This document shows positions 26,211 through 42,238 of a DNA stretch of 64,000 nt, piece after piece (within the stretch, counting starts at the first letter, position 1; every line of letters starts with the position of its first letter). Source of the stretch: Parapedobacter composti (lineage in GTDB: Bacteria > Bacteroidota > Bacteroidia > Sphingobacteriales > Sphingobacteriaceae); the NCBI RefSeq assembly GCF_900112315.1, contig NZ_FOLL01000002.1, forward strand, positions 186,001 through 250,000, written 5' to 3'. The notes beneath the pieces were generated by a model. That model did no database searches. It was not told the origin of the DNA and saw only the letters and a list, made by a program, of their open reading frames with translations. The position numbers and the translations under genes were made by a program.

Positions 26211-27107
26211 TCAACGGTGCAGCGCCAGCGCCTTCGCGACTTCAATGGGCAGGTCCGATTCGAGGATAGACGCCCCATCGGCAATGATGGCCCGGTAGGC
26301 TTCAGCGCGTGCCGCGGCCGTGGGCAGCTTATCGTAGGTTGGTGCCGCCGAAATCATGCACATCGTGCCCCTGGCGTTCAAGAGCCGGTACATGGTCCGG
26401 TTTCCGGGCTTGATATCCGGGCCGATATAAGCGATCATCCGGTTGAACGGGATTTTTGCCTTTTGGTAAGCCTCCAGCTTAGCTTCGGTTTGGATGTGTG
26501 CAGAGAGCATCTGATGCTTGTTCTTATCCAAATAAAAGCGGGCTTGTTCGGGCGAATGCACGGTTACCATCACAAAAGCGTAGGCGTCCAGCTCCCGGAT
26601 GAGGTCGGCCGTCATTTCCAAAGGCACATCCTTCCGGTCGAGGTTCAATATGGTTTTCCCCCTTGCCCATTCGATTACCTCAGCCAACGTCGGAATACGG
26701 TGCGGAGTCAGGTTGCCGTCCTTGTCTTTAAGCCGCAGTTGCTTCAGTTCCTCCCATGTAAAATCAGCCACTTTTCCCCGGCCATTGGTGGTGCGGTCCA
26801 GCGTGGCATCGTGCATGAGGATTATGACACTGTCTTTGGTAAGCCGCGGGTCGATTTCGAAAAAAGCCGGCGTATGCTCCAATACCTTTTCAAACGCAGC
26901 AATGGAATTTTCGGGAAGTCCGGCCTCGATGGAACCCCGGTGGCCACTGATGATGGTTTTGCCCTTTTCGTAGCGAAAAAAACGGTGCAGTTCTTTAGGA
27001 GATTTAAATTCCAGTGTATGAAGCTGCTGGGCGTTGGCCGAGCCAGCGGCGGCACCAAAGCACAGTACCGCCAGGCACCAATATTGTTTTAATTGCATCG
27101 TCATCAT
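26211..27107 (-). CDS. Exported glycerophosphodiester phosphodiesterase
   Basis: 298 residues with a signal peptide (1-26, cleavage at ANA-Q), so periplasmic. The GDPD TIM barrel is complete at its active site: HRG (His56, Arg57), Glu66-Asn67 in LPENS, Glu84 and Asp86 in FFEIDPR, and His99-Asp100 in MHDATLDRTTNGRG. Family members release sn-glycerol 3-phosphate from glycerophosphodiesters; GlpQ-type members can also trim poly(glycerol-phosphate) teichoic acid. It is the last gene of the RbtT-type permease/kinase operon, ten bases after the histidine phosphatase. That placement suggests it feeds the pathway with a phosphate-linked polyol. Confidence 0.92.
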   Translation of the reverse strand: MMTMQLKQYWCLAVLCFGAAAGSANAQQLHTLEFKSPKELHRFFRYEKGKTIISGHRGSIEAGLPENSIAAFEKVLEHTPAFFEIDPRLTKDSVIILMHDATLDRTTNGRGKVADFTWEELKQLRLKDKDGNLTPHRIPTLAEVIEWARGKTILNLDRKDVPLEMTADLIRELDAYAFVMVTVHSPEQARFYLDKNKHQMLSAHIQTEAKLEAYQKAKIPFNRMIAYIGPDIKPGNRTMYRLLNARGTMCMISAAPTYDKLPTAAARAEAYRAIIADGASILESDLPIEVAKALALHR

Positions 27108-27117
27108 ATAGTTAATG

Positions 27118-27720
27118 TCAGCTGTTCAGTTTCAGTAATGAAAATTCCTCTTCCCCCCCGAGACGTATCACCGTGATGGCCGAGTTTTCCTGGACGATTC
27201 TGCGGTAATGTTTCAGCGGCATGCCCAGTTTCCAGGCCAGGTACAGGCGGTTGATACCATTATGAGCCACCACCAATATTGACTGGCCGTCGTGCCGGAC
27301 CATCATCTCCGAAAAGAAGTCGTCCATCCGTTGCACCGCTTCCAGTCCGGTATCTCCCGTTCCCCCAGCACGCACATGGTCAGGCGACGCGTTCCAGTCG
27401 TCCCAAAGGGCAGGATTTTCGGCCACAAACGCTGCGCGCGTCTTACCTTCCCATGTACCGAAATCCAGTTCTATCAAGCGATTATCCCGCACCACCGGCA
27501 ACCCGTTTCCACAGGCAATTTCCGCCGTGCGGTATGCACGCTGCAAAGGCGAGGCGTAAACCGCATCAATCACCTTATCACGCAACACACCGGCCACCCG
27601 CCGGGCCTGTGCCAAGCCCGTTTCCGTCAGTTCAGCATCTATCCTTCCGCAATAGCGGTTTCCGTCTGCATTATAATGGGTTTCTCCATGTCGTAGCAAA
27701 TACACGTTCAGCATCTTCAA
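27118..27720 (-). CDS. Histidine phosphatase family protein (phosphoglycerate-mutase-like)
   Basis: 200 residues. The catalytic LLRHGETHYN (RHGE at 10-13, phospho-His11) is followed by AELTETGLAQARR, the second arginine region SPLQRAYRTAEIA, IELDFGTWEGKTRAAF with the acid Glu, and the second His in VVAHNGINRLYL. This is the cobC/GpmB-type branch, cytosolic, acting on small phosphate esters. Its start overlaps the stop of the upstream kinase by four bases, so it is coupled to it. It may dephosphorylate a sugar-phosphate intermediate of the cluster; the substrate cannot be read from sequence. Confidence 0.88.
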   Translation of the reverse strand: MKMLNVYLLRHGETHYNADGNRYCGRIDAELTETGLAQARRVAGVLRDKVIDAVYASPLQRAYRTAEIACGNGLPVVRDNRLIELDFGTWEGKTRAAFVAENPALWDDWNASPDHVRAGGTGDTGLEAVQRMDDFFSEMMVRHDGQSILVVAHNGINRLYLAWKLGMPLKHYRRIVQENSAITVIRLGGEEEFSLLKLNS

Positions 27721-29150
27721 ATATAATTCCGTCTTTTTAACTCGTCCATAAACCGGTGGTAGCCTGCTTCATAGCTTCTCACCAAACCAACCTGAGGGTG
27801 GATTTCGCGTTCGATAGCCGTCATCCGCCCCGCAGCTTCAGCCACGGAACTGAAATACGTTTTCGACGCCGCCGCAATAGCGGCACCCACCGCGCCGCTG
27901 GCTTCCCTGCATTTAAAAACCGGGCGATTCAGCACGTTGGCGCGGATATTCAGCCAGGTATCGCTATTGCTGCCACCGCCGGCGGTAAACACAGCGGCCA
28001 CCTGTTCACCTGAAAGCTGCTCAATAAGTTCATAAGCAAGCCTTTCGATATAGGCTACCCCTTCCAGGCACGCCGCGAACCGCATGGAAGGAGCCGTCCC
28101 CACAGGCATGAATCCCTCGGCGTCTGGCGCAATGAACGGGAACCGTTCGCCCCGCTGCTTCAAGGGCCAGGCGGCCAGACCCGTAGGAATCAGGGCCGCC
28201 GCTTCCTTGTCCAACTGCTGTACATCCGTACCGAAGTCCATCGCCACCCAATCAGCCCCCGTATTACTGGCGCCGCCGGGCATCCAATAACCATCGGGAT
28301 GGCGATGGCTATACAAACGGCCTTCGGGGTCGTTAACGGCCTGCTCCGTGACCCCTTTGATAACCAGCGTTGTGCCAATGGTGGTATTCCACTCGCCTGG
28401 CCTGACTGCACCTGACGCTAACTGCGAGGCGCAGCCATCCGTCATCCCCACAACCACTTCCGCATGATGCAGTTTCCACCGGTTGGCGAGCGCCCGGCGC
28501 AACGGCCCAATGGGCGTGCCGGAAGGCAGCACTTCCTGCAGCCATGCTGACTTCAGCGCCAAGTGCTCCATCAGGTAATCCGGCCATTGGCGGTTTGCCA
28601 CATCGTATCCCGATTTAAGCGCATTGGTGTAATCAGTCACATCAAAACGGCCACTGAGCATCCCGGTAATGTAATCCGAAGCGTGTATCCATTTCCGGAT
28701 GGCAGGCACCTGCCGGGAATAGGCTTGCATAAACCAAACCATCTTGGAAAGCCCGCTCGACGCATTGAAACCCGTATAACCCGAAGGCATGAACCGCTCG
28801 GCAAAAGCCTTGCATTGGCGGCCGGCCTCTGCAGAACGGGGGTCGCTGTACATGATTGCCGGATGCAACGGCCGGTTGGCTCCATCCAGCGGGATAACCG
28901 TGCCGGAAGTGGAATCCACCCCGATGGCTTGTACCGCTTCCCTGTCGACGTTTGGGGGCAGGATGCCAAATAATTCGTCCATTACGTCTAACGTGCATTG
29001 CCACCAATCATCCGGCGACTGCTCCATCCGGGAATCCGCCGTCAATTTAAAGCGGCGTGAAGCTTCGCCCAGCACCTGGCCCGTGTCCGTCACCATCGCG
29101 GCCCGTATTCCCTGCGTCCCTACATCTATTCCAATAAAGCTTTTCCCCAT
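27717..29150 (-). CDS. FGGY-family carbohydrate kinase (ribulokinase/xylulokinase-like)
   Basis: 477 residues. The first lobe opens with FIGIDVGTQGIRAAMVT, the phosphate-1 loop, and has the substrate-region motif IGVDSTSGTVIPLD. The second lobe shows WNTTIGTTLVIKG (phosphate 2) and AVFTAGGGSNSDTWLNIRANVLNRPVFKCREASGAVGAAI, the FGGY adenosine and signature region. Such kinases phosphorylate ketoses or polyols at a terminal hydroxyl with ATP. The sequence is closest in feel to D-ribulokinase/xylulokinase-like members, but the substrate is uncertain. It starts three bases after the second kinase gene and overlaps the phosphatase. Confidence 0.88.
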   Translation of the reverse strand: MGKSFIGIDVGTQGIRAAMVTDTGQVLGEASRRFKLTADSRMEQSPDDWWQCTLDVMDELFGILPPNVDREAVQAIGVDSTSGTVIPLDGANRPLHPAIMYSDPRSAEAGRQCKAFAERFMPSGYTGFNASSGLSKMVWFMQAYSRQVPAIRKWIHASDYITGMLSGRFDVTDYTNALKSGYDVANRQWPDYLMEHLALKSAWLQEVLPSGTPIGPLRRALANRWKLHHAEVVVGMTDGCASQLASGAVRPGEWNTTIGTTLVIKGVTEQAVNDPEGRLYSHRHPDGYWMPGGASNTGADWVAMDFGTDVQQLDKEAAALIPTGLAAWPLKQRGERFPFIAPDAEGFMPVGTAPSMRFAACLEGVAYIERLAYELIEQLSGEQVAAVFTAGGGSNSDTWLNIRANVLNRPVFKCREASGAVGAAIAAASKTYFSSVAEAAGRMTAIEREIHPQVGLVRSYEAGYHRFMDELKRRNYI

Positions 29151-29153
29151 CCC

Positions 29154-30599
29154 TTACCTGATTTGGCTGAATGTATGCCGCACCCGTTTCCATTCCTCAT
29201 AAAGCTCCAGGAAGCGCTCACGGTTGTCCGGTTGCACCTCCTCCTGCACCTCAGGGACCGCCCCGGCCAGGCCAAGCGCGTCGGCACAGATAAACGCCCC
29301 GCCCAACACCGACGATTGGCGGTAAGTATTGCAGATACGCACCTTCTTATTGGTCAGGTTAGCAATAAACTGCCGGAGCTTCCGGCTCTGCACACCACCT
29401 CCGCACGCCCAGATATAGTCGCGGTCATGCTGCGATACACTGCATAGCGTCTTATAGTTCTCATAAATGCTGCAAGCAATGTCCCACAGGATAGCAAACA
29501 CGAACCCCCCGCGCGTAAGCTGGTGCGATACCGGCGCATTAAAGATAAAACCGCCCTTGGTCAAGGGCGCATCCTCATCAGCCACCAGCGAGCCCAGCGA
29601 TGCCACGCATTGCGAATACGAGGTTTCGTCCAGCTCCCGCTCGATCACCTCGTAGCTTTCATTGGGATAAAAAATTTCTTTAAGGCGCTGGTAGTTAAGT
29701 CCGGTTACCCCGGCGTTGGCCTCCAGCATAAAACGATCAGCATCGATATGGCGCCCCGTCCATGTGCGCTGGCGGGTATCGGTAACGTACGCCTCCACCA
29801 GATTAACGATAGGTGTGGTAGTGCCCGACACGATGATCACATCATGGGTATCCGGCTGGATGCTCCGCACCGCCAGTTGGGTATCCGCTCCGCCGACTAC
29901 CACCACGGCCTCAGACGCAATCCTCAACTCGCTTGCGATTTCCGGCAACAGCGTGCCGAGTATCGTACCCGACGGTTTCAACGGGGGCAGCAATGCGGGC
30001 GCCAGTTTAAACACGTTGCACAGCTCATCCGACCAGCTTTTCGCCTGCACATCGTAAAGCAGGGTTTCCGAAGCCTGGGAATGTTCATAGCCCAGCACGC
30101 CCGAAAACTGGAATTGCACCCAATCGCTGATGCTGGTAAACGTTGCGGCACTGCTCCACAAATCGCGTTTCCGTTCGCGTAGTCCTACGAGTTTCAATGC
30201 CGAAAACAAGGCCGTGGGATACCGTCCGGTAAGCGTGTACATCCGCTCTTTATCGGCAATCATCCCTTCCCATTCCCGGCCCCGGTTATCGTGGTTAGAC
30301 ATGCCGATCAACGGCTTGCCCGAAGCGTCCAGCACAACAATGCCTTCCCGTTGGCTGGTTGCCGTAACCGCACATATGCGTACCGGACCGGCGTCAGCCA
30401 ATGCATGCATGGTCAACCGTTTAATCTGGTCCCACAGCCTGCCGGGTTCAAAATAAATAGCATCCGGGTAGTCGGCATCCTTTTCATACTGCACGTTTTC
30501 ACGGCGGAGGGCCAGGATCTCACCGGAGGTGGCCACCACAGCCGTCCGCGCATTACCCGTGCCGATATCCACCACCAAATAAGCCTGCACTGCACTCAT
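29154..30599 (-). CDS. FGGY-family kinase, LsrK (autoinducer-2 kinase)-like branch
   Basis: 481 residues. The phosphate-1 loop is VVDIGTGNARTAVV. Landmarks shared with LsrK are ICAVTATSQREGIVVLD, SISDWVQFQFSGVLGYEHSQAS and VVVVGGADTQLAV. The later WACGGGVQSRKLRQFIANLTNKKVRI is the FGGY-C signature region. LsrK phosphorylates the linear form of autoinducer-2, but the other lsr genes (lsrABCD, F, G, R) are absent here, so I expect a related small polyol or keto-sugar as substrate instead. It starts two bases after the dehydrogenase and three bases before the other kinase, so all are one operon. Confidence 0.85.
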   Translation of the reverse strand: MSAVQAYLVVDIGTGNARTAVVATSGEILALRRENVQYEKDADYPDAIYFEPGRLWDQIKRLTMHALADAGPVRICAVTATSQREGIVVLDASGKPLIGMSNHDNRGREWEGMIADKERMYTLTGRYPTALFSALKLVGLRERKRDLWSSAATFTSISDWVQFQFSGVLGYEHSQASETLLYDVQAKSWSDELCNVFKLAPALLPPLKPSGTILGTLLPEIASELRIASEAVVVVGGADTQLAVRSIQPDTHDVIIVSGTTTPIVNLVEAYVTDTRQRTWTGRHIDADRFMLEANAGVTGLNYQRLKEIFYPNESYEVIERELDETSYSQCVASLGSLVADEDAPLTKGGFIFNAPVSHQLTRGGFVFAILWDIACSIYENYKTLCSVSQHDRDYIWACGGGVQSRKLRQFIANLTNKKVRICNTYRQSSVLGGAFICADALGLAGAVPEVQEEVQPDNRERFLELYEEWKRVRHTFSQIR

Positions 30600-30601
30600 A
30601 A

Positions 30602-31612
30602 CTAAGACGAAGTTACATTGATGGTAAGCGATTCTTTATTAACCCATTGCCGGACATCCCGGTTGTTTTCCTTGAAATATTGCTTCAAACTCCGGTTCAT
30701 GATGGCCACATGATGGTCCTCCACCTCATGGGTGGCCCCGGCGATATGCGGCGTTGCCAGCACCCGCGGATGCCGGATAAGCCGGTAGTCCGTTTCATCC
30801 GGGGGTTCGTGGTCGAATACATCAAGAATAGCGCCGCCAATACGGCCGTTTTCGATAACGTCAAGCAATGCCATGCGGTCGACCACCACGGCCCTTGCCG
30901 TGTTGACGAAAACCGCGTTGGGTTTCATCAGTGAAAACAACCGCTCACCGATCATCCCTTTGGTTTCCTCAGTAACGGGCAGGTGAATGCCCACAATATC
31001 ACTGGTACGGAACAACTCTTCCAGCGACAGCTTGGCATAAGCTTCGTCATCCGCCGTATAAAACGGATCGTAATACCCGATCCTGCACGGAAATGCCTTC
31101 AGGATCTGCGCGATGGTTTGCCCCACCGCACCAAAGCCAACCATGCCCACCTGCTTCCCTGCCAGCTCGTTTCCCTTAAATTGCAGGTAAGACGTATGCG
31201 CACCCACGCCCCACCGGCCATTTTCCAGCCATTCGATGCTCTCCCGCGTATGGCGCATAAAGGTAATGATATTCGCGATAAAAAGTTCGGCGACGGCCTG
31301 GGCATTTCGAGCCGGTGTATTAAACACCGGTATACCCTGTTCTGTGGCCTGCTGTACAGCTATATTCGACGGTGTTCCGCGGCATACACCGATAAATTTC
31401 AGCCCCGGATATGCCTGGATAACTTCCGCGGTGACCTCATCGTGCTCGGTTATGAGCGCATCTGCCCGTGAGTCGGCCAGCAGCGTGATGAGTTCATCCG
31501 GTTTGTAGCCCCTTCCGTGCTGTTTCCAAGATTTGTAAACCACCTCTCCAAATAGTTGCGCCAGTTCTGCTCTACCCTTTTCATGGTAAGGCGCGGTAAC
31601 CAGTATCCTCAT
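30602..31612 (-). CDS. D-isomer-specific 2-hydroxyacid dehydrogenase (SerA-like)
   Basis: 336 residues. The NAD-binding domain shows MVGFGAVGQTIAQILKAF (GxGxxG) followed by an acidic YYDPFY, favouring NAD. The catalytic Arg lies in NTARAVVVDRMALLD, the Glu in FDHEPPDETD and the His in TPHIAGATHE. The C-terminal ACT regulatory domain of true SerA is absent, so serine synthesis is not the likely role. Similar genes occur with FGGY kinases in polyol or sugar-acid clusters, where they oxidise a hydroxy-acid intermediate. It follows the polyol permease by 33 bases and precedes the LsrK-like kinase by two. Confidence 0.88.
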   Translation of the reverse strand: MRILVTAPYHEKGRAELAQLFGEVVYKSWKQHGRGYKPDELITLLADSRADALITEHDEVTAEVIQAYPGLKFIGVCRGTPSNIAVQQATEQGIPVFNTPARNAQAVAELFIANIITFMRHTRESIEWLENGRWGVGAHTSYLQFKGNELAGKQVGMVGFGAVGQTIAQILKAFPCRIGYYDPFYTADDEAYAKLSLEELFRTSDIVGIHLPVTEETKGMIGERLFSLMKPNAVFVNTARAVVVDRMALLDVIENGRIGGAILDVFDHEPPDETDYRLIRHPRVLATPHIAGATHEVEDHHVAIMNRSLKQYFKENNRDVRQWVNKESLTINVTSS

Positions 31613-31645
31613 AAAATGTTAGTGTTTGGTATATTGCATTATCAA

Positions 31646-32914
31646 TTACTCCGTGGCCGTCTCCGTGGCCGGTGCCTGTACCGCTTGGGCGTATTTAGGT
31701 AAGGTGATGAACAAGGTAAGGAATGCACTCAGGAAGTATAATCCCGCGAGCACCCATATCACTCCTTCATCGCCAATCGTAGCAATCAGCCCACCCACAA
31801 TGGCCGGCCCCACGAATACCGGCAGGCCGGCGCCCAGGTTCAGGATGGCCATGGCCGCCCCTTTATCTTTTTTGACCAATGATGGCACCAACGCCGACAG
31901 CGGTACATACCCCGCCAGCAAGCCGCCCCAAAGGACCCCGCTGAACAGGACGGCCCAGAAATCGCCACCGAACCATACGGGCGAATAGAAAAAGAGCAGC
32001 GTGGTAAGCCCACAGCCCACCCCGCCAAACCACATAATCGTGGTGCGCCAGCCAAGCCGGTCGCCCACAAAACCGAATATCAGGTTAAAAGCGATATTAC
32101 TGGTAAAAATTGTACCCCATATCTGCAGCCATTCCTTGGTACTGAATCCATGGGTAGCCATGTATATCGGCAAGAAAACCGGAAAAGCAAACTGGGCCGT
32201 GGTATTGATAACCCGCACGATGCCACCCAGCAGTACTTTCGGTTCCTCACGCACAATAGTGAGCCCTTTTAGCATTTCCCTCGTTTTTGACCCCGCATCA
32301 CCCGAAGGGACAAAGCGATCTTTATTGAGTACAAGCGCAAAGAAGGCGCCCACTAACACCCAGAAAATTGAACTCCACAGCGTATTTTGATATCCCATGA
32401 AATCGATAGCCCAGCTTGAGTAATAAGCGCCGAAGACGTTCAGCCCACCCGTAAAAACAAACCAGAACCAGCCCACGGCACGGCCCAGCCTATCCTTCGG
32501 CGTACGATAGGTTACCCATACCAAAAAGGAATAAGCAAAAAGCGGATACCCAAAGCCACGGATTGCATAGGTTACCAGCATTACCGGAAAATCCAGTTTA
32601 GCCATGCCTAAGCCGACGAATCCGATGGTGCCAATAATATAAAGCAGCAACCCCATCAACATGGCCTTTCGCGGGCCATACCCTTCTGCCAGCACGCCGG
32701 AAAACCAAGAAGAGATGGCTATCGTGATACCATATGCAGTAAAGAGAGAAGCCGATTGCTGAATAGACATCCCGTGCTCCAACAAGTAAGGGCTTAGCCA
32801 GCCCTGCTCGACACCATCGCCCATCATAAAAATAATAATGCCCAGGTAACCCCAAGCCAGCGGTTTTGGCAGGCCGATTTTATCTAACAATTCTGGTTTT
32901 TCTTGTACATTCAT
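31646..32914 (-). CDS. MFS polyol permease (RbtT/DalT/CsbX-like)
   Basis: 422 residues and about 12 membrane segments. Landmarks shared with the ribitol/arabitol permeases RbtT and DalT are FMMGDGVEQGWLSPYLLEHG near the start, YAIRGFGYPLFAYSFLVW, AVGWFWFVFTGGLNVFGAYYSS, GGIVRVINTTAQFAFPVFLPI and FSTKEWLQIWGTIF. This points to proton-coupled inner-membrane uptake of a pentitol or related polyol. It heads the permease-dehydrogenase-kinase-kinase-phosphatase-GDPD operon. The 243-base spacer upstream is very AT-rich with a TATATTTG box (minus strand, 32957-32950) and AAATTTAA repeats, so it is probably regulated separately from susCD. Confidence 0.9.
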   Translation of the reverse strand: MNVQEKPELLDKIGLPKPLAWGYLGIIIFMMGDGVEQGWLSPYLLEHGMSIQQSASLFTAYGITIAISSWFSGVLAEGYGPRKAMLMGLLLYIIGTIGFVGLGMAKLDFPVMLVTYAIRGFGYPLFAYSFLVWVTYRTPKDRLGRAVGWFWFVFTGGLNVFGAYYSSWAIDFMGYQNTLWSSIFWVLVGAFFALVLNKDRFVPSGDAGSKTREMLKGLTIVREEPKVLLGGIVRVINTTAQFAFPVFLPIYMATHGFSTKEWLQIWGTIFTSNIAFNLIFGFVGDRLGWRTTIMWFGGVGCGLTTLLFFYSPVWFGGDFWAVLFSGVLWGGLLAGYVPLSALVPSLVKKDKGAAMAILNLGAGLPVFVGPAIVGGLIATIGDEGVIWVLAGLYFLSAFLTLFITLPKYAQAVQAPATETATE

Positions 32915-32949
32915 GATATTACAATTGGTTGTTAGTTTTTAAAGCCGAC

Positions 32950-32998
32950 CAAATATAATAAAATTTAATATTATTAAATATTTTTAAACAAAATTTAA
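32950..32998 (-). promoter_or_regulatory. Promoter box and paired AAATTTAA motifs before the polyol permease
   Basis: On the minus strand a -7 box TATATTTG (32957-32950) lies about 36 bases before the permease start. AAATTTAA occurs at 32961-32968 and 32991-32998 (plus-strand coordinates, 30 bases apart), with a third copy at 33089-33096. The nearest copy sits between the -7 and -33 positions. The same octamer pair is in front of susC. A role as operator for the DeoR-type regulator is inferred. Confidence 0.4.
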
Positions 32999-33157
32999 GT
33001 GTTTAAAATAAGCTTTTCGTCTTTTCGGAGATGATATCGTATAACCGGTCTGAGCAAACTCGAAGGAAGCAGTTGGTTGTCGTGTTTTAAATTTAATATC
33101 CATGTTTATCAATCGCTTTTCTTGGAGCAGTGCCGCGTCAGCCAAGCTACCAAAGGT

Positions 33158-34762
33158 TCAATACGATCTGGCGGCATTGAAATCCGTAGTCAGTTGGTGT
33201 TGTTCATATACATTTCCGAAGCGATCAGTAGCCAACACCTTGATATCGGCCCTAGGATTTTCGGGGGCATAAGTGTACAAGTGGGTACAAAGCTGACTAT
33301 AATTGGCCGGATTACGGTTCAATACACCAATATGGTAACCTAAGCTCCATGCGTCTCGATTTACGGCTGCCGGCGCCATATTACCTGTTTTAACGCCGTC
33401 TTCATACACCTCAATAACCCACTCGTCGTCGGCATTCCATACATTGGCTACAAGAGTGTTACCGGGAAGACTATAAGAAAAATACCCATATTGCCCCCCG
33501 AACGAAGCATCTCCCCAATGCAGCCGTATCTGGAAATCCTTGTCATAATTAGTGGCTTTGTAGTACCATTCTGTTATGGTGTTCCCAGTGACTCTATACA
33601 CGGCATAGCCATTGGGCGTACCATCGCCGTTGATGGTAGAACGCCACCATGCACCACATGCTGCGCCATGGATATGTTCATAAATATGCGGCGAGACGGA
33701 TGTGTGTATGTAATTCTGATTGTAATGCGTATGGCCGCTCATGAAGTGAACTTCGGCGTATCCCTCAAACAGTTTCAGCAACTTGTCTTTATTCGCCATG
33801 TTAGCCCCTCGTATGGGGATATGGTAATACAGAATGATCATCTTGTCTTTAGGAACGTAGCTTAAATCCTGTTCAAGCCACGTTAACTGTTCTTCGCTGA
33901 ATGCTCCTGTATAATTTGTATGGTCTGTAAATACAACATTATCCAGGCAGATAAAATGCACATCGCCACGGTTGAACGAGTAATTCAAGGGGCCATAGAT
34001 GTTACTAAAGAAATCTCCCGTGCGGGGGGCGGGAGCCGATGAAAATTTGTCATGGTTGCCAATGGTAGTAAATACAGGCATCGAGGTGCTCCCTAATATG
34101 TTTTTCATGCTGTTGAGCAATCCTTGTTGATCACCTACCACATCCCCCATCGACAGCCCGTATGCCGGCGTACTAAGCGTGCTTAGCGTCATTTTCAGGT
34201 CATTGATGGTTTCCTGTTGGAAACGCGTGACTTCACCTTGGTTAGTAACCTGCGGATCCCCGATACAGAAAAGCGTAAAATCCGACTCTTTGCGCGGCAG
34301 TTTCGTCAACTGAAAATCGGCCCTTACAGCCGCTCCGGCTGCAGCGTTGATCGGTTTGTAAAAACTGGGGATATTGCGAGACGAAGTTTCCACGTTGATG
34401 GCATAATCCGCAGGGGTGACATAGAAAACAAACCGTGCGTTGGCATTCCTTTTCAGTTGATAGACCCCTTCTTCATCCGTCTGGACGCAGGTATAACCAT
34501 CACTGACCACCACGCCCTGTACGGGTTGACCGCCATCATCCAAAATAAGTCCATATAAATCATTTCCGGATTCCGGTTCAATCGTTACCACTCCCGGGTC
34601 GTGTGGATCATCAATCGCCGGTGTTTCTGTCTTGCCTCCGCAGTGGATTAGTAAAGCAATAAAGAATACACAGCCATACTTACCTATGGCGCTTCGCACC
34701 CACTGGTGTAAATACATCTTTTTTACCTGCAACATATTCATAGGGTTGTAAATGGAATTCAA
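33158..34762 (-). CDS. Lipoprotein calcineurin-like metallophosphoesterase
   Basis: 534 residues. A hydrophobic segment ends at C41 (ALLIHC), so it is probably a lipoprotein; Met16 (ATG at 34717) may be the true start. Residues 65-150 are a carboxypeptidase-regulatory-like beta domain (LYGLILDDGGQPVQGVVV). Residues 155-360 are the phosphoesterase with all metal motifs: IGDPQV, MGDVVGD, IGNHDK, YYHIPIRG and SGHTHYN. Residues 360-534 match the C-terminal domain common to these Bacteroidetes enzymes. It would hydrolyse phosphomono- or diesters outside the cytoplasm. It follows the BACON lipoprotein by 42 bases in the susCD operon; PhoD-like enzymes of this fold degrade teichoic acids, which frames the substrate idea. 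Confidence 0.88.
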   Translation of the reverse strand: MNSIYNPMNMLQVKKMYLHQWVRSAIGKYGCVFFIALLIHCGGKTETPAIDDPHDPGVVTIEPESGNDLYGLILDDGGQPVQGVVVSDGYTCVQTDEEGVYQLKRNANARFVFYVTPADYAINVETSSRNIPSFYKPINAAAGAAVRADFQLTKLPRKESDFTLFCIGDPQVTNQGEVTRFQQETINDLKMTLSTLSTPAYGLSMGDVVGDQQGLLNSMKNILGSTSMPVFTTIGNHDKFSSAPAPRTGDFFSNIYGPLNYSFNRGDVHFICLDNVVFTDHTNYTGAFSEEQLTWLEQDLSYVPKDKMIILYYHIPIRGANMANKDKLLKLFEGYAEVHFMSGHTHYNQNYIHTSVSPHIYEHIHGAACGAWWRSTINGDGTPNGYAVYRVTGNTITEWYYKATNYDKDFQIRLHWGDASFGGQYGYFSYSLPGNTLVANVWNADDEWVIEVYEDGVKTGNMAPAAVNRDAWSLGYHIGVLNRNPANYSQLCTHLYTYAPENPRADIKVLATDRFGNVYEQHQLTTDFNAARSY

Positions 34763-34804
34763 CGTTGCATGGCGACGGTTGTACGATCGCCATGCAATTA
34801 TTTG

Positions 34805-36061
34805 TTATTCGACAGACCTCGATATGACGACATCGTCTAACAAAAAACGATTGTTGGCTACCGATTTCGCCCGGAATGCAATCACGGTTTCGGGAGTCGC
34901 ATCCCGTATGATGAAAGACATTTCCTGCCATTCGGGAGTCAGATCAATTTCGGTTCCGGCAATTTCCGCTATCCCGCCGTTCGCCACCTGAATGACCAGT
35001 TTGGCATTTTGGTCGGCCGAAGCATTCTCGCTCCAGCGGGCCACTTTAAACGTTACCTTCACATCGTCCGTTCCTTCTATAGTGCTTAACGGCGGTGTAG
35101 CGATATAACCGTCTGTGCTTCCGGCAGTACCGATTTTCACGTATCCCGGCCGCTCGTATACGCGCATTCCTGTCCAGCCGGCCAATCCCCTATCAGCCAC
35201 AAAAGAAGGGTGCATGGTATTGAAGTAGTCGCCTGTACCGTCGGTATTCGCTGTTCCACTAATTGCAAATTGGGGATTCTCGGGAAGCACACGTTTACCA
35301 TCGATTGTTGGCCAATTTCCTACAAGGTGTAGCCCGGCAGCCTTTCCGACATGGTCGCCACCAAGCACAAGCAAGTCAAAATACTGCTCAAGATAAATCA
35401 TGCTGCCTGGATCCGTTTCGAACACCGTCGCATTGAGGGAAGCGGAAGTGCCCATAACACTTACGGCGATATTAAGTGATCCCTCAGCCAACGGGGTTCC
35501 GGTAATGGGGATTTCAAACGTCCCGGTTTCTCCATTAAGTTCAACGGTTACCCCCGAAGCGGTTAATCCCTCGGCTCCCGGGCCGCTAAGTGTGACAGAC
35601 ACATCCAGTTGCTCGCCGACTATCCCTTTATTGAATGGAACAACCACAGACACGTCTTCCAGCGGTTCCCCTTTTATCAGCGTTTTGCTTAACGACAAAT
35701 TGCCCAGAATCATACGGCCCTCGGCTTGGACGACATCAATATAGATGTTATCGTTAGCCGCTTGGATTGTTAACCGACCCGTACGCTGATCGCCGACGTT
35801 ACGGGCTACCGTTACCGTGACCACTTCCCTTGTCTCGCCGTCCCCGACCCCTGAAGCTGGACTCACATCTATCCAATCGCTTTCCTCGCCCGACACCGTC
35901 CAGTTCCCATTCGTACATATCGTAAACGTTTGGCTGGAAGCTGCATAACCAAAAGTCAAATTATCCGTGCTGCGGAGTACAAAAGGCAGGTCGGTCTTTG
36001 AACAAGAAACGCAGCAAGCCAAAATAACGACCAATAAATTTTTACCAAACAGATTTTTCAT
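34805..36061 (-). CDS. Surface lipoprotein with BACON domain (SusE/F-position protein)
   Basis: 418 residues from the ATG at 36061, which gives a clean lipoprotein signal (MKNLFGKNLLVVILACCVSC, C20); the frame stays open 58 codons further upstream into susD and is not coding there. Residues about 30-110 form a BACON domain (FTICTNGNWTVSGEESDWIDVSPASGVGDG), a glycan- or mucin-binding beta sandwich. A second beta domain lies about 120-210, and a C-terminal domain (about 240-418, VKIGTAGSTDGYIATPPL, FRAKSVANNRFLLDDVVI) resembles carbohydrate-binding/discoidin-type folds. Directly after susD, it occupies the SusE/SusF position and should help hold the ligand at the outer membrane. Confidence 0.85.
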   Translation of the reverse strand: MKNLFGKNLLVVILACCVSCSKTDLPFVLRSTDNLTFGYAASSQTFTICTNGNWTVSGEESDWIDVSPASGVGDGETREVVTVTVARNVGDQRTGRLTIQAANDNIYIDVVQAEGRMILGNLSLSKTLIKGEPLEDVSVVVPFNKGIVGEQLDVSVTLSGPGAEGLTASGVTVELNGETGTFEIPITGTPLAEGSLNIAVSVMGTSASLNATVFETDPGSMIYLEQYFDLLVLGGDHVGKAAGLHLVGNWPTIDGKRVLPENPQFAISGTANTDGTGDYFNTMHPSFVADRGLAGWTGMRVYERPGYVKIGTAGSTDGYIATPPLSTIEGTDDVKVTFKVARWSENASADQNAKLVIQVANGGIAEIAGTEIDLTPEWQEMSFIIRDATPETVIAFRAKSVANNRFLLDDVVISRSVE

Positions 36062-36101
36062 GTTGATTATCCGATTTACATGCATGTTTTGATTTAGAAA
36101 G

Positions 36102-37901
36102 CTATCTTTCCCATCCGGGATTCTGACCAAGTGCAGGATTGACCTGTCTGGCACTGGTAGGTATCGGACGCAGGTATTTTTTGTCCAACCAACGCCGCCC
36201 CTGGCTGAAGCCAAACTCCAAGTTACCCCTATCACCTTCCGAAAGACGGTAAACCGAACCCAGCACTACATAAGCAACCCCTGGAATCCGCTGATTCGCA
36301 GGTGGCTCGGCATCCACCACGCTAAGATCTGGGGCGCCATCTCCATTCAGATCATAAACCTCGCCTTTTTGGGGAATATATATTCCCTGCCAGGTTTTCT
36401 CCAGCAGTTCGCCCATGCGCCAGCGCATAATATCGTCGTACCGAACGTTTTCAAACACTAGTTCCACACCCCTTTCGCGCCGCACTTCCAAAATCCACTT
36501 ATCGGTGGTCTGGTGCTGGTAATAAGCAGCCAAATAAGGATCGTACGCTGCAGGCGGTGCACCATTCACTCCAGCCCGCTCCCGCAGCAACCGTATTGAC
36601 CGGTCCCATTCGGGCACATCCATTTCCCCCAATTCAGCTTTGGCTTCAGCGTAGTTCAGCAGCACCTCGGCGTAACGAAACATAGGGATTGAATTATTTG
36701 CGGTAGCCAAACCCACATGCACATCATCATCGAGCGCCCATTTGATGGGCTGGTAACCTGTTGACGTCAGGGCGAAATTCGGTGCATCCCGCCGCACGGC
36801 GCCACTAATCCTGCGCGTATAGGAAGGTGATATAACGGTCTGTTCCAATCGCCGATCCCGGTTTTCAAACACCTCCCGATAAGTTTTCTGTTCATATCCC
36901 GGAAGGTCGGTAAAGCGGCTCCCGTCAAGCATCAGGTATTGGTTTACAAATGGCTGGGTGAGTGACCAGTTATTACCGAATGATGCCGAGAAGAGTTTCC
37001 AAGTGATCGAATGCATACGCACATCGGTCCTGAACGACAACCCTAATATAACCTCCGTTGTATTCAAGTTTTCCGAAGTAAACAGCGATCGGTATTGCGT
37101 TGCCACATTAGCGGGATTATTCACTAACCGATAAGGACCTGTGGTCATCAGTTCCTCTGCCGCGCTTACCGCTTCCCGTAAAAATTTCGGAGCGGACGCT
37201 TTAAGCCCCAATTCTTCATGATAATTCCGATATGTACCTTCAAACAAGCACACCCTCGATTTGAACGCCAAAACAACCCATTTATTAATCAGTGTAGACG
37301 AACGGACATAACGATCTTCCGCTGAGCAGTTTTCCGCAGCGAAATTCAAGTCCTCCAATATCTTGTCCATCACGAATTCACGGGAATCCCTCGGCTTATA
37401 TAACTGGTCTGCATCGGCGATGTCAATTTCGCTGTCGTACCAAGGAACATCCCCGAACGTACGAACCATACTATAATAAAAATAAGCCCGCCAGAACCTT
37501 CCCACACCTTCATAATGGCGATAGGTAGCGTCGGACACGTTCGATCTTGCTTTAGGCAGATTATCAAGAAAATAGTTCACATTGCGCAACTCCGACCATT
37601 TTCCACTGGCGCCGCCACCCCAGCCGCCTTGTTCGTCAGGCCCCCAGTTATCACCGATCAGGAATTGGGTGGATGTGCGGGTCGCGATGTTATCGCTGTA
37701 TTGATCTCCCCAAGCCAACGTCTCTTCATCTGGCATATGCCGCTGCAAAAATCCATTGGTATATAGCACCAGGTCATTTTCGGTTCGCATAAACTCCTCT
37801 GACCCTATTTCGTTTTCAGGATCCCTGGTTAAAAACTCCTGGCAAGACGCCAAAAGAAATGCGGATAACAAAATAAATAGCTGTTTCATAAGACCTTTCA
37901 T
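36102..37901 (-). CDS. SusD/RagB family outer-membrane nutrient-binding lipoprotein
   Basis: 599 residues. Lipobox at C20 (LLASCQEF). The helical TPR-like N-terminal half (DNLPKARSNVSDATYRHYEGVGRFWRAYFYYSMVRTFGDVPWY) and the SusD C-terminal block (PMFRYAEVLLNYAEAKAELG, LRERAG, ERGVELVFENVRYDDIMRWRMGELL, YLRPIPTSARQVNPALGQNPGW) are typical. SusD lids the SusC channel and binds the ligand at the cell surface. It starts one base after the susC stop, so the two are co-translated. The start could also be the ATG at 37889 (MKQLF). The ligand is not evident from sequence. Confidence 0.95.
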   Translation of the reverse strand: MKGLMKQLFILLSAFLLASCQEFLTRDPENEIGSEEFMRTENDLVLYTNGFLQRHMPDEETLAWGDQYSDNIATRTSTQFLIGDNWGPDEQGGWGGGASGKWSELRNVNYFLDNLPKARSNVSDATYRHYEGVGRFWRAYFYYSMVRTFGDVPWYDSEIDIADADQLYKPRDSREFVMDKILEDLNFAAENCSAEDRYVRSSTLINKWVVLAFKSRVCLFEGTYRNYHEELGLKASAPKFLREAVSAAEELMTTGPYRLVNNPANVATQYRSLFTSENLNTTEVILGLSFRTDVRMHSITWKLFSASFGNNWSLTQPFVNQYLMLDGSRFTDLPGYEQKTYREVFENRDRRLEQTVISPSYTRRISGAVRRDAPNFALTSTGYQPIKWALDDDVHVGLATANNSIPMFRYAEVLLNYAEAKAELGEMDVPEWDRSIRLLRERAGVNGAPPAAYDPYLAAYYQHQTTDKWILEVRRERGVELVFENVRYDDIMRWRMGELLEKTWQGIYIPQKGEVYDLNGDGAPDLSVVDAEPPANQRIPGVAYVVLGSVYRLSEGDRGNLEFGFSQGRRWLDKKYLRPIPTSARQVNPALGQNPGWER

Positions 37902-37902
37902 T

Positions 37903-40900
37903 TTAAAATGTCAGATTAATACCCAGCGTATAGGTGTTCAACATTGGGTAACCGTAACCATCGCCATCAGTTCCCGAAGTTGCCCGGAAATCCGTATCGC
38001 CGGCATGTATTACCTCGGGATCGAAATTTTTAGTGACACGGAACATAGGCGACCACGTATATAAATTCTCTCCGGCCAAGTAAACGTTTAACGCCTGCAT
38101 TCCCAGTTTGGAGCAAATACGCGGACTGAAGGCATAGCTGATTTGCAAATTTTTCAATCTTACATAGGCTGCATTTTGCAGATACCGGTCATTGGTCACT
38201 GTCATGCTGCGATTGGCGTTTAGCGCCAAGTATCCACGATAACGTGGCCAATAGGCGTCTACATTTTGGTTCTCTTCAGTCCACACATTATCGCCCGTGT
38301 GCATGTTGAGCATATAGCCGTAGGGCCGGTTATATTGCCCCCAGAAATAAGCCGATTCCTTAGCGGGATACCAATGGCGCTGCCCCACGCCTTGAATGAA
38401 GGCGTTCAGCCCTATGCGGTTCCAAGAAAATCCTAAATTTACCCCGAACTGATAACGGGGGGTAGTATTGCCGATAATCGTACGATCACCCGGATCATCG
38501 ACAGTATTCGCACCTGGAGTGATGGCCTGATCTCCATTCAAATCGGCAAATTTAAGATCTCCCGGCTTCAAAATGTTGCTGCCGGACACAATGATGCGCG
38601 ATTGATCAACATGATTATCAATATCCTCCTGATCCCGGAACAACCCTAATATACGGTATCCCCAGATTTCGCCGATTTCCATCCCTTCATAATATGTCGA
38701 TAACAGCTTATTGGGGTTATTGTATTTCGTTACCCAACTGCGGCTATCCCAAAGCATCGCTTTAACACTGTATTGGAAAGGCTTGTCTGCTAAGCTTCCC
38801 TGGTCGCGCCACTCCACCGATGCCTCCCAGCCCTTGGTTTTGAGGTCAGCATTATTGCCTCTCGGGATAGCGGCACCGAACACATGAGGCACTTCCGGTC
38901 CGACAGTGAACATATCTGTCGTATGGCGCTCGTAATAATCCAATATCACACTAAGCCTGTTGTTCAAGACCGTAAAATCCAATCCGATGTCATATGTTGT
39001 TGCCTTTTCCCACGTCAGGCTTCTCGGGATATTGGCCGGCGCATACGTATAGGTTTGCAACAGATCATCAATAATGAGTGAGCTCCGGTTAATGGGCATG
39101 GTGGGCAGATAAAGGTAGGGATCAACGTTACCGTTACCCAAGCCGCCCACCGAAAGGCGAAGCTTGAGGTCATTCAGCCATCCTGCTGTCGGCTGCATGA
39201 ACCGCTCTTCATTAATCCGCCATGCAAGCGATGCAGAAGGGAAAAATCCCCACTGCTGGTTAGAAGGGAATTTCGACGTACCGTCGTAGCGCCCGCTGAC
39301 TTCGACCAGGTATTTATCCTTATAGTTATAATTGCCACGGAAAAAGAGTCCCGCATACGCCCACTCGTAGCCCGCTTGGTCATTGATGTAATAATCACCG
39401 TCCATCAAGGCAAAACTAGGCTTTGTAGGATACAATAATCCCCGGCGGTATGTCCGGATATCGCGTGATCGGCGCTCTTCCATGTTCCATCCGGCCAACA
39501 GGTTCAGGCGATGGTCGGTCCCCGAAAATTTAGGGATGTAATTGGCGGTGGCGTTGAGCACCATATATTGATTGTCATACGAGTAATGCTCTAAAGAGCT
39601 GAACGTATGACGTGTTTTCTTAATAGAAGGCCCGGTGTAAAAGTCGTACATGTTTTCCACGCGCTGGCGCTCCGAATGATTGAAAAGATAAGTAAACTCG
39701 CCCTTAAATATCAATTGCTCAGGGATTGCGGTATAGGTTAATCCGGTAATATTCCGCAAGTCGAATTTTTGATTTTTCTGGTAGGATGTTCCTTCAACAA
39801 AGCCGGCCCAGCCGGTATATACCGCGGTTTCGGTCCAAGTGCCATCCAGATTGCGAACCATGGTCATCGGATAAGCTTGGTGCTCAAGCATCCGCGGAAG
39901 GAGTTGCCGGTCGTACATTACCATAGGTTGATGGATGTGCCGGCGGATAAAATCCATATTATTGTCAAGTACCAGCTTAGGGGTCAATTGGATTTGCCCT
40001 TTGGCGCGCACATTATACTGGTTGTAATCCTCATTGCCAGCATTATATATGCCTTCCTGATTGAAATAACGCCCAGACAAGTAATATTTAGCGCGATCTG
40101 TGCCGCCAGAAAGGCTCAAATTATGTTCGGTAGAAAGGTTGTAATCGCGATAAACAACATCGAACCAGTTGGTATTGCCGAAGTATTCGTATTCACCGGC
40201 GCTGTTAACCCTAATCTTCTCCAGCGTCGGGTCAGCATCGCGCTTGCGCAGTTCATTATACCATTCCGTACTGTATTTGAAAACATTGTTAATGCCGCCG
40301 GGCGGTGTCCCCAGATCCATGCCTTCCATGTATGCCTTATACCAGCCATCCGTCCATTGAAGACCGTTTGATATTATATTGTCTTCCATTTTAACAAGTC
40401 GCTGATGACGAGAAAGGCCACCGCTGTACGTAATTTTAGGTTTACCTTCGGCCGCCTTCTTGGTGGTAATCAGCACCACACCAAAAGCGCCGCGCGCACC
40501 GTAAACAGCTGCCGAGGAGGCATCTTTCAGGATACTGACACTTTCTACATCATCGGGGTTCACCGTCGTCATATCGCCTTCCACACCGTCAATCAGGATA
40601 AGTGCTCCTCCACCGGCCCCGATACTGCCCGTGCCACGAAGATTCAGCGTGGCTCCCCGAGACGGCTTGCCGTCACGCATGGTAATATTCAAGCCCGGCA
40701 TCATGCCCTGCAGGGACCTTGAAATGTTCATGTTTCCTCTGTTCTGCAGCCGGTCGCCGCTGATTTGATCAACCGCGCCCACCAAATCTCGGCGTTTCAT
40801 CGTTCCATACCCGACCACCACGACCTCTTCCAGACTGCGCTCTTCGGGCGACAACTGAACCTGCACCGAAGGCTGCCCATCGTAAACGATTTTCTGTGAT

Positions 40901-41136
40901 TGATAGCCTACAAGGGTAAACGAGAGTTCATCTCCCCGGGCTATATCCAAGGAAAAGGCTCCATCCGCAGCTGTCACCGCCCCCGGTCCAGATCCGCCCC
41001 TGGTAACGGTAACACCCTGCAAAGGCCGTCCGCCATTGTCTGTCACATACCCGGTGACCCGGGCCGTTTGCTGGGCCAGTACTGTGGCACTCGTCAGCAA
41101 ACAAAACATCATTAAATAGTAAATCTGCTTCGCCAT
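37903..41136 (-). CDS. SusC/RagA family TonB-linked outer-membrane transporter
   Basis: 1077 residues. Signal peptide 1-21 (VLA-QQ), carboxypeptidase-regulatory-like domain about 26-95 (VTGYVTDNGGRPLQGVTVT), TonB-box region EEVVVVGYG 103-111, plug domain (GDRLQNRGNMNISRSLQGMMPGL, RGTGSIGAGGGALILIDG, NPDDVESVSILKDASSAAVYGARGAFGVVLITTK) and a beta barrel ending in an aromatic strand (YTLGINLTF). It imports oligomeric nutrients across the outer membrane with TonB energy, in complex with the SusD protein. No anti-sigma-binding N-terminal extension is present, which agrees with control by the divergent DeoR-type regulator rather than by an ECF/anti-sigma pair. Confidence 0.96.
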   Translation of the reverse strand: MAKQIYYLMMFCLLTSATVLAQQTARVTGYVTDNGGRPLQGVTVTRGGSGPGAVTAADGAFSLDIARGDELSFTLVGYQSQKIVYDGQPSVQVQLSPEERSLEEVVVVGYGTMKRRDLVGAVDQISGDRLQNRGNMNISRSLQGMMPGLNITMRDGKPSRGATLNLRGTGSIGAGGGALILIDGVEGDMTTVNPDDVESVSILKDASSAAVYGARGAFGVVLITTKKAAEGKPKITYSGGLSRHQRLVKMEDNIISNGLQWTDGWYKAYMEGMDLGTPPGGINNVFKYSTEWYNELRKRDADPTLEKIRVNSAGEYEYFGNTNWFDVVYRDYNLSTEHNLSLSGGTDRAKYYLSGRYFNQEGIYNAGNEDYNQYNVRAKGQIQLTPKLVLDNNMDFIRRHIHQPMVMYDRQLLPRMLEHQAYPMTMVRNLDGTWTETAVYTGWAGFVEGTSYQKNQKFDLRNITGLTYTAIPEQLIFKGEFTYLFNHSERQRVENMYDFYTGPSIKKTRHTFSSLEHYSYDNQYMVLNATANYIPKFSGTDHRLNLLAGWNMEERRSRDIRTYRRGLLYPTKPSFALMDGDYYINDQAGYEWAYAGLFFRGNYNYKDKYLVEVSGRYDGTSKFPSNQQWGFFPSASLAWRINEERFMQPTAGWLNDLKLRLSVGGLGNGNVDPYLYLPTMPINRSSLIIDDLLQTYTYAPANIPRSLTWEKATTYDIGLDFTVLNNRLSVILDYYERHTTDMFTVGPEVPHVFGAAIPRGNNADLKTKGWEASVEWRDQGSLADKPFQYSVKAMLWDSRSWVTKYNNPNKLLSTYYEGMEIGEIWGYRILGLFRDQEDIDNHVDQSRIIVSGSNILKPGDLKFADLNGDQAITPGANTVDDPGDRTIIGNTTPRYQFGVNLGFSWNRIGLNAFIQGVGQRHWYPAKESAYFWGQYNRPYGYMLNMHTGDNVWTEENQNVDAYWPRYRGYLALNANRSMTVTNDRYLQNAAYVRLKNLQISYAFSPRICSKLGMQALNVYLAGENLYTWSPMFRVTKNFDPEVIHAGDTDFRATSGTDGDGYGYPMLNTYTLGINLTF

Positions 41137-41470
41137 TGTTTATGATATAATTATATTAAATGAATAATTTTATTAGGCGCGAGCTAAAGCACCCCACCTC
41201 AACAAGCGGCCTCAACGCTACATGGCAATTCACTTTCATTTGCTTACTTTTAAGGTTTATAATGTAAGACAAATTTAACAAAATAAAATTTTATAAAACA
41301 AGAAATTTAAATAAAATAAACAAAATATAATATACATTTAAACATTAATTAACATAAAACCTGTTGAATGCCGAACATCGTTTCAAAAAGTTAACTATTC
41401 TTTCCTTTTTAATTTCCCTTTATTCGCAAAATCCAGTAACATTGCCATAGCAATTCATTTCTGGAAGATT
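41137..41470. promoter_or_regulatory. Divergent AT-rich control region between susC and the DeoR-type gene
   Basis: 334 bases. For susC a minus-strand promoter is visible: TTG (41301-41299), 21 bases, TAAATTTG (41277-41270), giving a leader of about 125 bases. AAATTTAA occurs at 41271-41278 (over the -7 box) and 41303-41310 (next to the -33), 32 bases apart. The rest is almost pure A/T between 41270 and 41360. No convincing -7 box for the regulator gene itself was found. Confidence 0.5.
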
Positions 41471-42238
41471 ATGAAGAACATCACCAAGCGGCACCAGTTC
41501 ATTCTGGAACGGCTCAAAGACAAAGGACAGATTACCATACCGGAGCTCATTGACCTTACGGAAGTATCGGGCGTCACGATTCGCAAGGACTTAAAATTCT
41601 TGGAAGACAAGGGGCTTATCTTTATCACCCGCGGCGGAGCGTCGCTCACAAACCCATATACCATTGACAGGCCCATCTATGAAAAGGCCACCATCAATGC
41701 GGAGCAGAAAAAGAGAATTGCACAGGCTGCTGTCAAACTAATCGGCCAGAATGATGCCATTATTATAGGCTCCGGCACCACCGCGTTTGAATTTGCCCAC
41801 CAACTGCATCCGGCAACCCCATTGACGGTGATCACCCCCGCGGTGAGAGTGACGATGGAACTCTGCAACCGGCCAAACGTTGAAGTGCTCCAATTGGGTG
41901 GGCTTATCCGGCCTAACTCATCGTCTGTGGCCGGCTCCTATGCCGAGTATATGCTCGACCGCGTATCGTGCGGCGTTCTTTTCATCGGTGTCGATGGCAT
42001 CGATCTTGACTTCGGATTTTCCATCAGCAATCTAACGGAAGCCAACATCAACCAGAAGATGATCAATACATCACAGGTGGTAGTGGTGTTGGCCGACAGC
42101 ACCAAATTCGGCAAGCGCGGCATCGGAAAGATATGCGAACTGGAACAGGTCCAATACATTGTAACGGATAATGGTGTCTCTGAAACCTTCGTCAAAGAGC
42201 TGGAAGAACGCGGGCTGAAGGTCATCGTTGCCAAATAA
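41471..42238 (+). CDS. DeoR/GlpR family transcriptional regulator
   Basis: 255 residues. N-terminal winged helix (about 1-60: RHQFILERLKDKGQITIPELIDLTEVSGVTIRKDLKFLEDKGLIFITRGGA) is the DeoR signature. The C-terminal DeoRC sugar-phosphate-binding domain (about 75-230) has IIIGSGTTAFEFAHQL, FIGVDGIDLDFGFS and VVVLADSTKFGKRGIGKIC. Regulators of this class are normally repressors released by a phosphorylated sugar or polyol intermediate. That matches the two kinases in the neighbouring cluster. It is divergent from susC and is the obvious candidate to bind the AAATTTAA repeats. Confidence 0.92.
   Translation: MKNITKRHQFILERLKDKGQITIPELIDLTEVSGVTIRKDLKFLEDKGLIFITRGGASLTNPYTIDRPIYEKATINAEQKKRIAQAAVKLIGQNDAIIIGSGTTAFEFAHQLHPATPLTVITPAVRVTMELCNRPNVEVLQLGGLIRPNSSSVAGSYAEYMLDRVSCGVLFIGVDGIDLDFGFSISNLTEANINQKMINTSQVVVVLADSTKFGKRGIGKICELEQVQYIVTDNGVSETFVKELEERGLKVIVAK

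Follow-up and report, generated by a model that had tools for sequence, protein, structure and literature searches.

A SusCD-type locus of Parapedobacter composti as a candidate system for the use of phosphodiester-linked polyols

The stretch of DNA considered here is a 64-kb window from Parapedobacter composti (contig NZ_FOLL01000002.1, positions 186,001 to 250,000), which contains at window positions 26211-42238 a locus that pairs a SusC/SusD outer-membrane system with a polyol permease-kinase operon. We read it, with moderate confidence, as a SusCD-type carbon-utilisation locus whose ligand is a phosphodiester-joined polyol, most likely a teichoic-acid-like polymer or glycerophospho-polyol fragments. 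The use of a phosphodiester-linked polyol is well supported by context, because the order of the core genes, the frequency of phosphoesterases around them, the linkage of the SusD orthologues and a shared predicted operator all favor it. Teichoic acid is the leading candidate for the substrate, although unproven, and we infer the substrate, the division of labor among the phosphoesterases and the effector of the DeoR-family regulator. The source genome, that of a soil bacterium, is 4.6 Mb in size and 99.6% complete, and the nearest named relatives for the locus are Parapedobacter species. Eleven genes were verified with their coordinates and strands (Table 1), and their families were assigned by Pfam and NCBIfam scans. 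Their content and order are as the initial annotation described them: a DeoR-type regulator gene divergent from susC, susD and genes for a BACON-domain lipoprotein and a metallophosphoesterase (MPE) lipoprotein, followed by those for an RbtT-type permease, a D-2-hydroxyacid dehydrogenase family enzyme (HDH), two FGGY kinases (FGGY1 and FGGY2), a histidine phosphatase and a glycerophosphodiester phosphodiesterase (GDPD).

Of 401 Sphingobacteriales genomes, only five encode an orthologue of the SusD protein (at least 64% identical), and in each of these the gene is no more than about 10 kb from the polyol core. The Sphingobacterium loci L150, L210 and L211 carry both halves on one strand in the order RbtT-HDH-FGGY1-FGGY2-phosphatase-GDPD-SusC-SusD-BACON-MPE, and in Niabella the SusCD orthologue adjoins the regulator. 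Because of this linkage, the one-strand fusion and the shared predicted operator, it is supported that the SusCD half and the polyol operon belong together. A permease-kinase operon that never accompanied susCD and phosphoesterase genes in relatives had been named at the outset as the observation that would count against the proposal; the three Sphingobacterium loci contain both. Weaker relatives of SusD are found in other settings, as L207 has SusC, SusD and a GDPD with no polyol genes, and in L208 an MPE and a GDPD are accompanied by a ribose-type ABC transporter and a gene resembling that of D-arabinitol dehydrogenase. The Dyadobacter and Larkinella versions of the core are mostly without SusCD beside it.

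The core itself is widespread. When 151 genomes were searched at family level, 25 had a true RbtT, and the same downstream order was present in 21 of the 24 besides the source. Scanning named genomes with an FGGY1 alignment was positive for Sphingobacterium, Pedobacter, Olivibacter, Larkinella, Spirosoma, Dyadobacter, Adhaeribacter, Rufibacter, Chitinophaga, Niastella, Niabella and others. After removal of duplicates, 99 distinct Bacteroidota loci were left, and the order RbtT-HDH-FGGY1-FGGY2-phosphatase is intact in 91 of them; the gene set therefore goes far beyond chance. The histidine phosphatase is present in 98 loci, GDPD in 79, and a DeoR orthologue flanks the core in 83. The variable part around the core is made up of genes for substrate capture and cutting, including susCD in some loci and not in others (SusC lies within 9 kb of the core in 28/99). 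A GDPD or another phosphoesterase is found in 85 of the 99 loci. The great majority of the conserved accessory genes encode phosphoesterases, and these belong to unrelated families, namely EEP (endonuclease/exonuclease/phosphatase), metallophosphoesterase, phospholipase C, NPP (nucleotide-pyrophosphatase-type phosphodiesterase) and extra GDPDs. Their recurrent recruitment is the strongest sign of a phosphodiester substrate, without saying which one. Other accessory genes encode SGNH esterases and a pair made up of an organic-acid-type major facilitator superfamily (MFS) transporter (MFS422, 23/99 loci) and an FAD oxidoreductase (FADox, FAD_oxidored PF12831, 26/99), as in L044:6753-9448 and its orthologues. 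Compared with solved structures, FADox showed nucleotide-binding similarity only.

Shared control was predicted from a motif learned on 74 intergenic regions that flank the regulator in other genomes; Parapedobacter and the SusCD-orthologue loci were excluded. The search was seeded with an over-represented word, present in 22.5% of regulator-flanking regions vs 0.9% of other intergenic regions; an unseeded search settled on the start codon region of the regulator's own gene and was discarded. The resulting motif, TTTAATTTTGTTTAAaTA, has 16.6 bits vs 9.7-10.2 in AT-matched control sets. When both strands of the window were scanned, the top site (19.0) was at 32981 upstream of rbtT, and the second and third were at 41271 (14.8) and 41313 (14.7) between deoR and susC, while the best site outside the locus scored 11.0. 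Because the region is rich in A and T, and moderate scores were also obtained at or near 41271 with some control motifs, the rbtT site is the stronger evidence. As the three best sites in the window sit upstream of rbtT and susC, both units probably answer to the same DeoR protein. The MPE gene and rbtT are separated by 243 bases with the predicted site inside, and the locus is therefore probably made up of two transcription units. Within the catabolic operon the gaps are 33, 2, 3, -4 and 10 bases, which agrees with its description as tight, with gaps of 33 bases or less. Two overlaps had been claimed and one is seen, which itself vanishes if the phosphatase starts at an ATG two codons in (27714). 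No Rfam match was obtained that would indicate control by a riboswitch or another RNA.

The permease exceeds the curated cut-off of TIGR00897 (RbtT/DalT/CsbX) by 559 to 375 bits, in line with its first assignment, and relatives at 67-70% identity adjoin polyol dehydrogenases of mannitol/arabitol type in loci L046 and L050. FGGY2 aligns with SePSK, the bacterial member of the SePSK/AtXK-1 subgroup, which preferred D-ribulose among the sugars tested (PMC4880283). The equivalents of SePSK D8, T11, S72, K163 and D221 are kept together with long common motifs, and the S222 position is Gly. FGGY2 is thus a probable D-ribulose kinase, and this grouping, taken with the RbtT-family permease, points to ribitol or another pentitol as the imported compound. 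By its domain, its HRG/ENS/EID/MHD motifs and its signal peptide, GDPD classes as an exported glycerophosphodiesterase, with best NCBIfam scores far under the equivalog cut-offs. FGGY1 is nearest LsrK, although its 143 bits on NF008187 fall below the cut-off of 528, and it matches the structure 5ya0 (E 5.5e-31). Both FGGY proteins score higher on other FGGY classes than on glycerol-kinase models in NCBIfam.

HDH forms an orthologue group sharply set off from its paralogues (at least 57% vs at most 38% identity), in which R240, E269, H289 and most of the CRGTPSN loop are invariant. The orthologue is present in 55 of 401 Sphingobacteriales genomes and is scarce across the phylum, where 3 of 396 genomes have it, the source among them. 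Naming HDH from its nearest structure was tried and dropped, since the match was broad, to phosphoglycerate dehydrogenase and glyoxylate reductase, with no specific substrate. Direct conversion of ribitol to ribulose by HDH was considered as a possibility, the chemistry of the family arguing against it. HDH, FGGY1 and the histidine phosphatase are conserved to the same degree as the permease, and we know of no pentitol pathway that employs these three.

At the surface, the BACON protein has orthologues that are 48-51% identical in the linked loci, and its start is probably at 36061, adjacent to its own lipobox, rather than at 36235. A structure model (pLDDT 79) gave matches of Ig/BACON type only and no clue to a ligand. 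The MPE has a PF16371-PF00149-PF16370 architecture with the metal-binding motifs GD, GNHD, H and GHTH conserved in the alignment. A sequence search of solved structures found no match to it, and the nearest folds to a low-confidence model (pLDDT 65) are purple acid phosphatases and SMPDL3 phosphodiesterases.

Taken together, these parts suggest a route in which the SusD and BACON lipoproteins would bind the ligand on the cell surface, the MPE lipoprotein would cleave phosphodiesters there and SusC would take the fragments in. Periplasmic GDPD may then split off glycerol 3-phosphate and release a polyol that is probably a pentitol, for example ribitol, and would be moved into the cytosol by RbtT. 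After conversion to D-ribulose, phosphorylation by FGGY2 would lead into the pentose-phosphate pathway, and DeoR would repress both units until a phosphorylated intermediate accumulates. The initial annotation had proposed a polysaccharide-utilization locus (PUL) for a polymer joined by phosphodiesters, and that proposal is partly supported, by the linked halves, the phosphoesterase accessories, the RbtT permease and the FGGY2 subgroup. Its assignment of the MPE to the PhoD type is wrong, as no PhoD family matched in the Pfam and NCBIfam scans, and for teichoic acid as such there is no more than a hint.

That hint has one further lead in variants of the locus. A lipoprotein of L209 (PROP5) has a match to the platform, a propeller of five blades, in the fibres of Staphylococcus phages (PF21311; P68 fibre, 6iab/6iac), and a search with a profile of four PROP5 orthologues again ranks the phage fibre first (E 1.6e-6). 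The phi11 relative of this platform is part of a receptor-binding protein for the N-acetylglucosamine of wall teichoic acid (PMC4901313). PROP5 occurs four times in 55 cassette genomes, each time in a SusCD locus and twice inside the cassette operon. It is possible, and we suggest it only tentatively, that the whole is a teichoic-acid acquisition system made up of surface recognition (by the phage-fibre-like beta-propeller in some variants), phosphodiester cleavage, SusCD import and an undescribed polyol pathway run by HDH, FGGY1, FGGY2 and the phosphatase.

Several observations weigh against the use of a phosphodiester-linked polyol, or against teichoic acid in particular. Independent linkage events number perhaps three, several of the linked genomes being close relatives. 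PROP5 is absent from the source genome and matches phage fibres only weakly and over a short stretch (E about 1e-6), and phospholipase C in variants L209, L217, L047 and L053 suggests lipids. Neither the MPE nor the BACON protein has a characterized close relative. The HDH family acts on 2-hydroxyacids, and the HDH and FGGY1 steps form no recognizable pentitol pathway. As the initial annotation had remarked, the operon has no polyol dehydrogenase or aldolase by Pfam and NCBIfam, nor was a dedicated-looking one found genome-wide in the families searched; the genome's one mannitol-dehydrogenase-family gene is on another contig.

Table 1. Features of the locus in window coordinates, with the PROP5 lipoproteins of its variants
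Feature	Coordinates	Strand	Evidence
DeoR/GlpR-family regulator, divergent from susC	41471..42238	+	PF00455 157.8 bits, PF08220
Two predicted regulator sites, deoR-susC gap	41271-41288 and 41313-41330	-	learned motif, scores 14.8 and 14.7
SusC-like TonB-dependent outer-membrane porin	37903..41136	-	70% identical orthologue adjoins core in Sphingobacterium
SusD-like surface binding lipoprotein	36102..37901	-	PF07980 145.3 bits
BACON-domain surface lipoprotein, C-terminal half without identified family	34805..36061	-	PF13004
Calcineurin-like metallophosphoesterase (MPE) lipoprotein, proposed surface phosphodiesterase	33158..34762	-	MetallophosN/Metallophos/MetallophosC
Predicted regulator site upstream of rbtT	32981..32998	-	motif score 19.0
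RbtT/DalT/CsbX-family polyol permease	31646..32914	-	TIGR00897 559 bits
D-2-hydroxyacid dehydrogenase family enzyme (HDH)	30602..31612	-	PF02826/PF00389
FGGY kinase 1, nearest LsrK (autoinducer-2 kinase)	29154..30599	-	NF008187 143 bits; 5ya0 E 5.5e-31
FGGY kinase 2, SePSK/AtXK-1 subgroup, probable D-ribulose kinase	27717..29150	-	5htr E 6.8e-52, 5htn E 9.6e-48
Cytosolic histidine phosphatase (CobC/PspA-like)	27118..27720	-	PF00300 184 bits
Exported glycerophosphodiester phosphodiesterase (GDPD)	26211..27107	-	PF03009 89 bits
PROP5 lipoproteins	L209:9136-10485, L225:10163-11557, L226:8345-9511, L227:8129-9496		all SusCD loci

Just past the locus, at 43888-45345 on the plus strand, lies a gene for a protein that resembles sulfatases and carries a motif of formylglycine type, CAPSR. 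Among the other cassettes, a lipoprotein directly follows the phosphatase in the place of GDPD in Niabella (L122:13702-14961, L128:13476-14669) and likewise in a genome that is less closely related but belongs to the same class (L148:4533-5768); the L122 member was scanned and had no Pfam match. Genes for GH106 alpha-rhamnosidases often neighbor the cassette (L058/L087, L121/L132-L134, L137) and are judged to be separate adjoining loci.

The locus may alternatively serve to feed on phospholipid head groups, with surface and periplasmic phosphoesterases stripping phospholipids or glycerophosphodiesters and RbtT importing glycerol, inositol or a derivative. We think this unlikely, while giving it serious weight. 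Phospholipase C, EEP and GDPD genes occur in variants L047, L053, L209 and L217, a glycerol-3-phosphate dehydrogenase gene stands beside SusCD in L059, GDPD is the usual glycerophosphodiester enzyme, and the low-confidence MPE model resembles SMPDL3 phosphodiesterases. However, the operon lacks an inositol dehydrogenase and a glycerol kinase, both FGGYs fitting non-glycerol-kinase classes better, FGGY2 groups with ribulose kinase, and a TonB-dependent SusCD pair would be unusual for lipid fragments.

It is less probable that the locus scavenges phosphate rather than carbon in the manner of the Flavobacterium PusCD loci, whose published layout also combines SusCD with phosphodiesterases and phosphatases and has no glycoside hydrolase (PMC8115612). 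The most conserved part of the cassette, with its polyol permease, two sugar kinases and dehydrogenase, would be useless for phosphate alone, and SusCD is missing next to most of its Dyadobacter and Larkinella versions. The regulator, retained in those 83 loci and with predicted sites at both units, is of sugar-phosphate type, and these sites speak for a signal other than the depletion of phosphate.

More doubtful still is the salvage of sugar acids or S-adenosylmethionine by-products, by which HDH and FGGY1 would handle an aldonic acid or a methylthioribose/5-deoxyribose-like compound freed from a phosphodiester. The 2-hydroxyacid family of HDH and the organic-acid-type MFS and FAD oxidoreductase of many loci would suit such a role. 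The HDH-FGGY pairs found outside Bacteroidota have class II aldolase genes for neighbors and, in Enterococcus raffinosus, genes of the MtnK and MtnA families, which suggests that the pair is an older module. These outside relatives are, however, just 33-44% identical, the Bacteroidota cassette has no aldolase, and RbtT and FGGY2 indicate a pentitol and a pentulose. The E. raffinosus megaplasmid operon (L141, 6643-15675) contains genes for DeoR, an NhaC-like transporter, the HDH and FGGY relatives, a class II aldolase, an iron-type alcohol dehydrogenase (Fe-ADH) and the MtnK- and MtnA-family proteins, and is a possible methylthioribose/5-deoxyribose-type salvage operon. A possible relation of the cassette to the yoaDCB genes of Bacillus subtilis, which we take to encode an HDH, an FGGY kinase and a permease, was also considered. 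The yoaDCB genes are S-box regulated (PMC2743287).

Finally, that an ordinary polyol operon merely neighbors an unrelated susCD locus would fit a core that is mostly without SusCD, but this is very improbable and already contradicted by the SusD linkage in five of five genomes, the fused arrangements and the shared predicted operator.

Teichoic acids account for much of the Gram-positive cell wall. If the use of a phosphodiester-linked, teichoic-acid-like polyol is correct, Bacteroidota of soil and plants recover carbon and phosphorus from the wall polymers of Gram-positive bacteria, with an outer-membrane system dedicated to this, and the five-gene polyol cassette, widespread as it is, gains a testable role. 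Among the papers searched, none described a SusCD locus feeding on teichoic acids or the gene set.

Among known systems, ribitol and D-arabitol operons share the RbtT-family permease and an FGGY pentulose kinase with the present locus, which differs in lacking a polyol dehydrogenase and in having HDH, a second, LsrK-like FGGY, a histidine phosphatase and GDPD. FGGY2 resembles SePSK/AtXK-1 in the active-site equivalents that it keeps (PMC4880283) and differs in its place in a catabolic operon and in the Gly at the S222 position. The locus works like a PUL, and the adjacent susC and susD by which a PUL is recognized were confirmed. It shares with the classical kind this pair, the surface lipoproteins, a surface hydrolase, a dedicated regulator and downstream catabolism, but its hydrolases are phosphoesterases, its regulator is of DeoR type and the glycoside hydrolase or polysaccharide lyase of a classical PUL is missing. 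As initially described, there is no glycoside hydrolase between 26211 and 42238; neither enzyme type appears among the Pfam matches of ten scanned locus proteins, the eleventh gene, SusC, encoding a porin. The closest known kind that it resembles is the PusCD phosphate-utilization loci of Flavobacterium (PUS I-II), in which a SusCD pair is likewise joined by phosphodiesterases and phosphatases that replace glycoside hydrolases. It is starvation for phosphate that induces the PUS loci (PMC8115612), whereas in the present locus the DeoR protein and the polyol permease-kinase operon that it is predicted to control indicate use for carbon.

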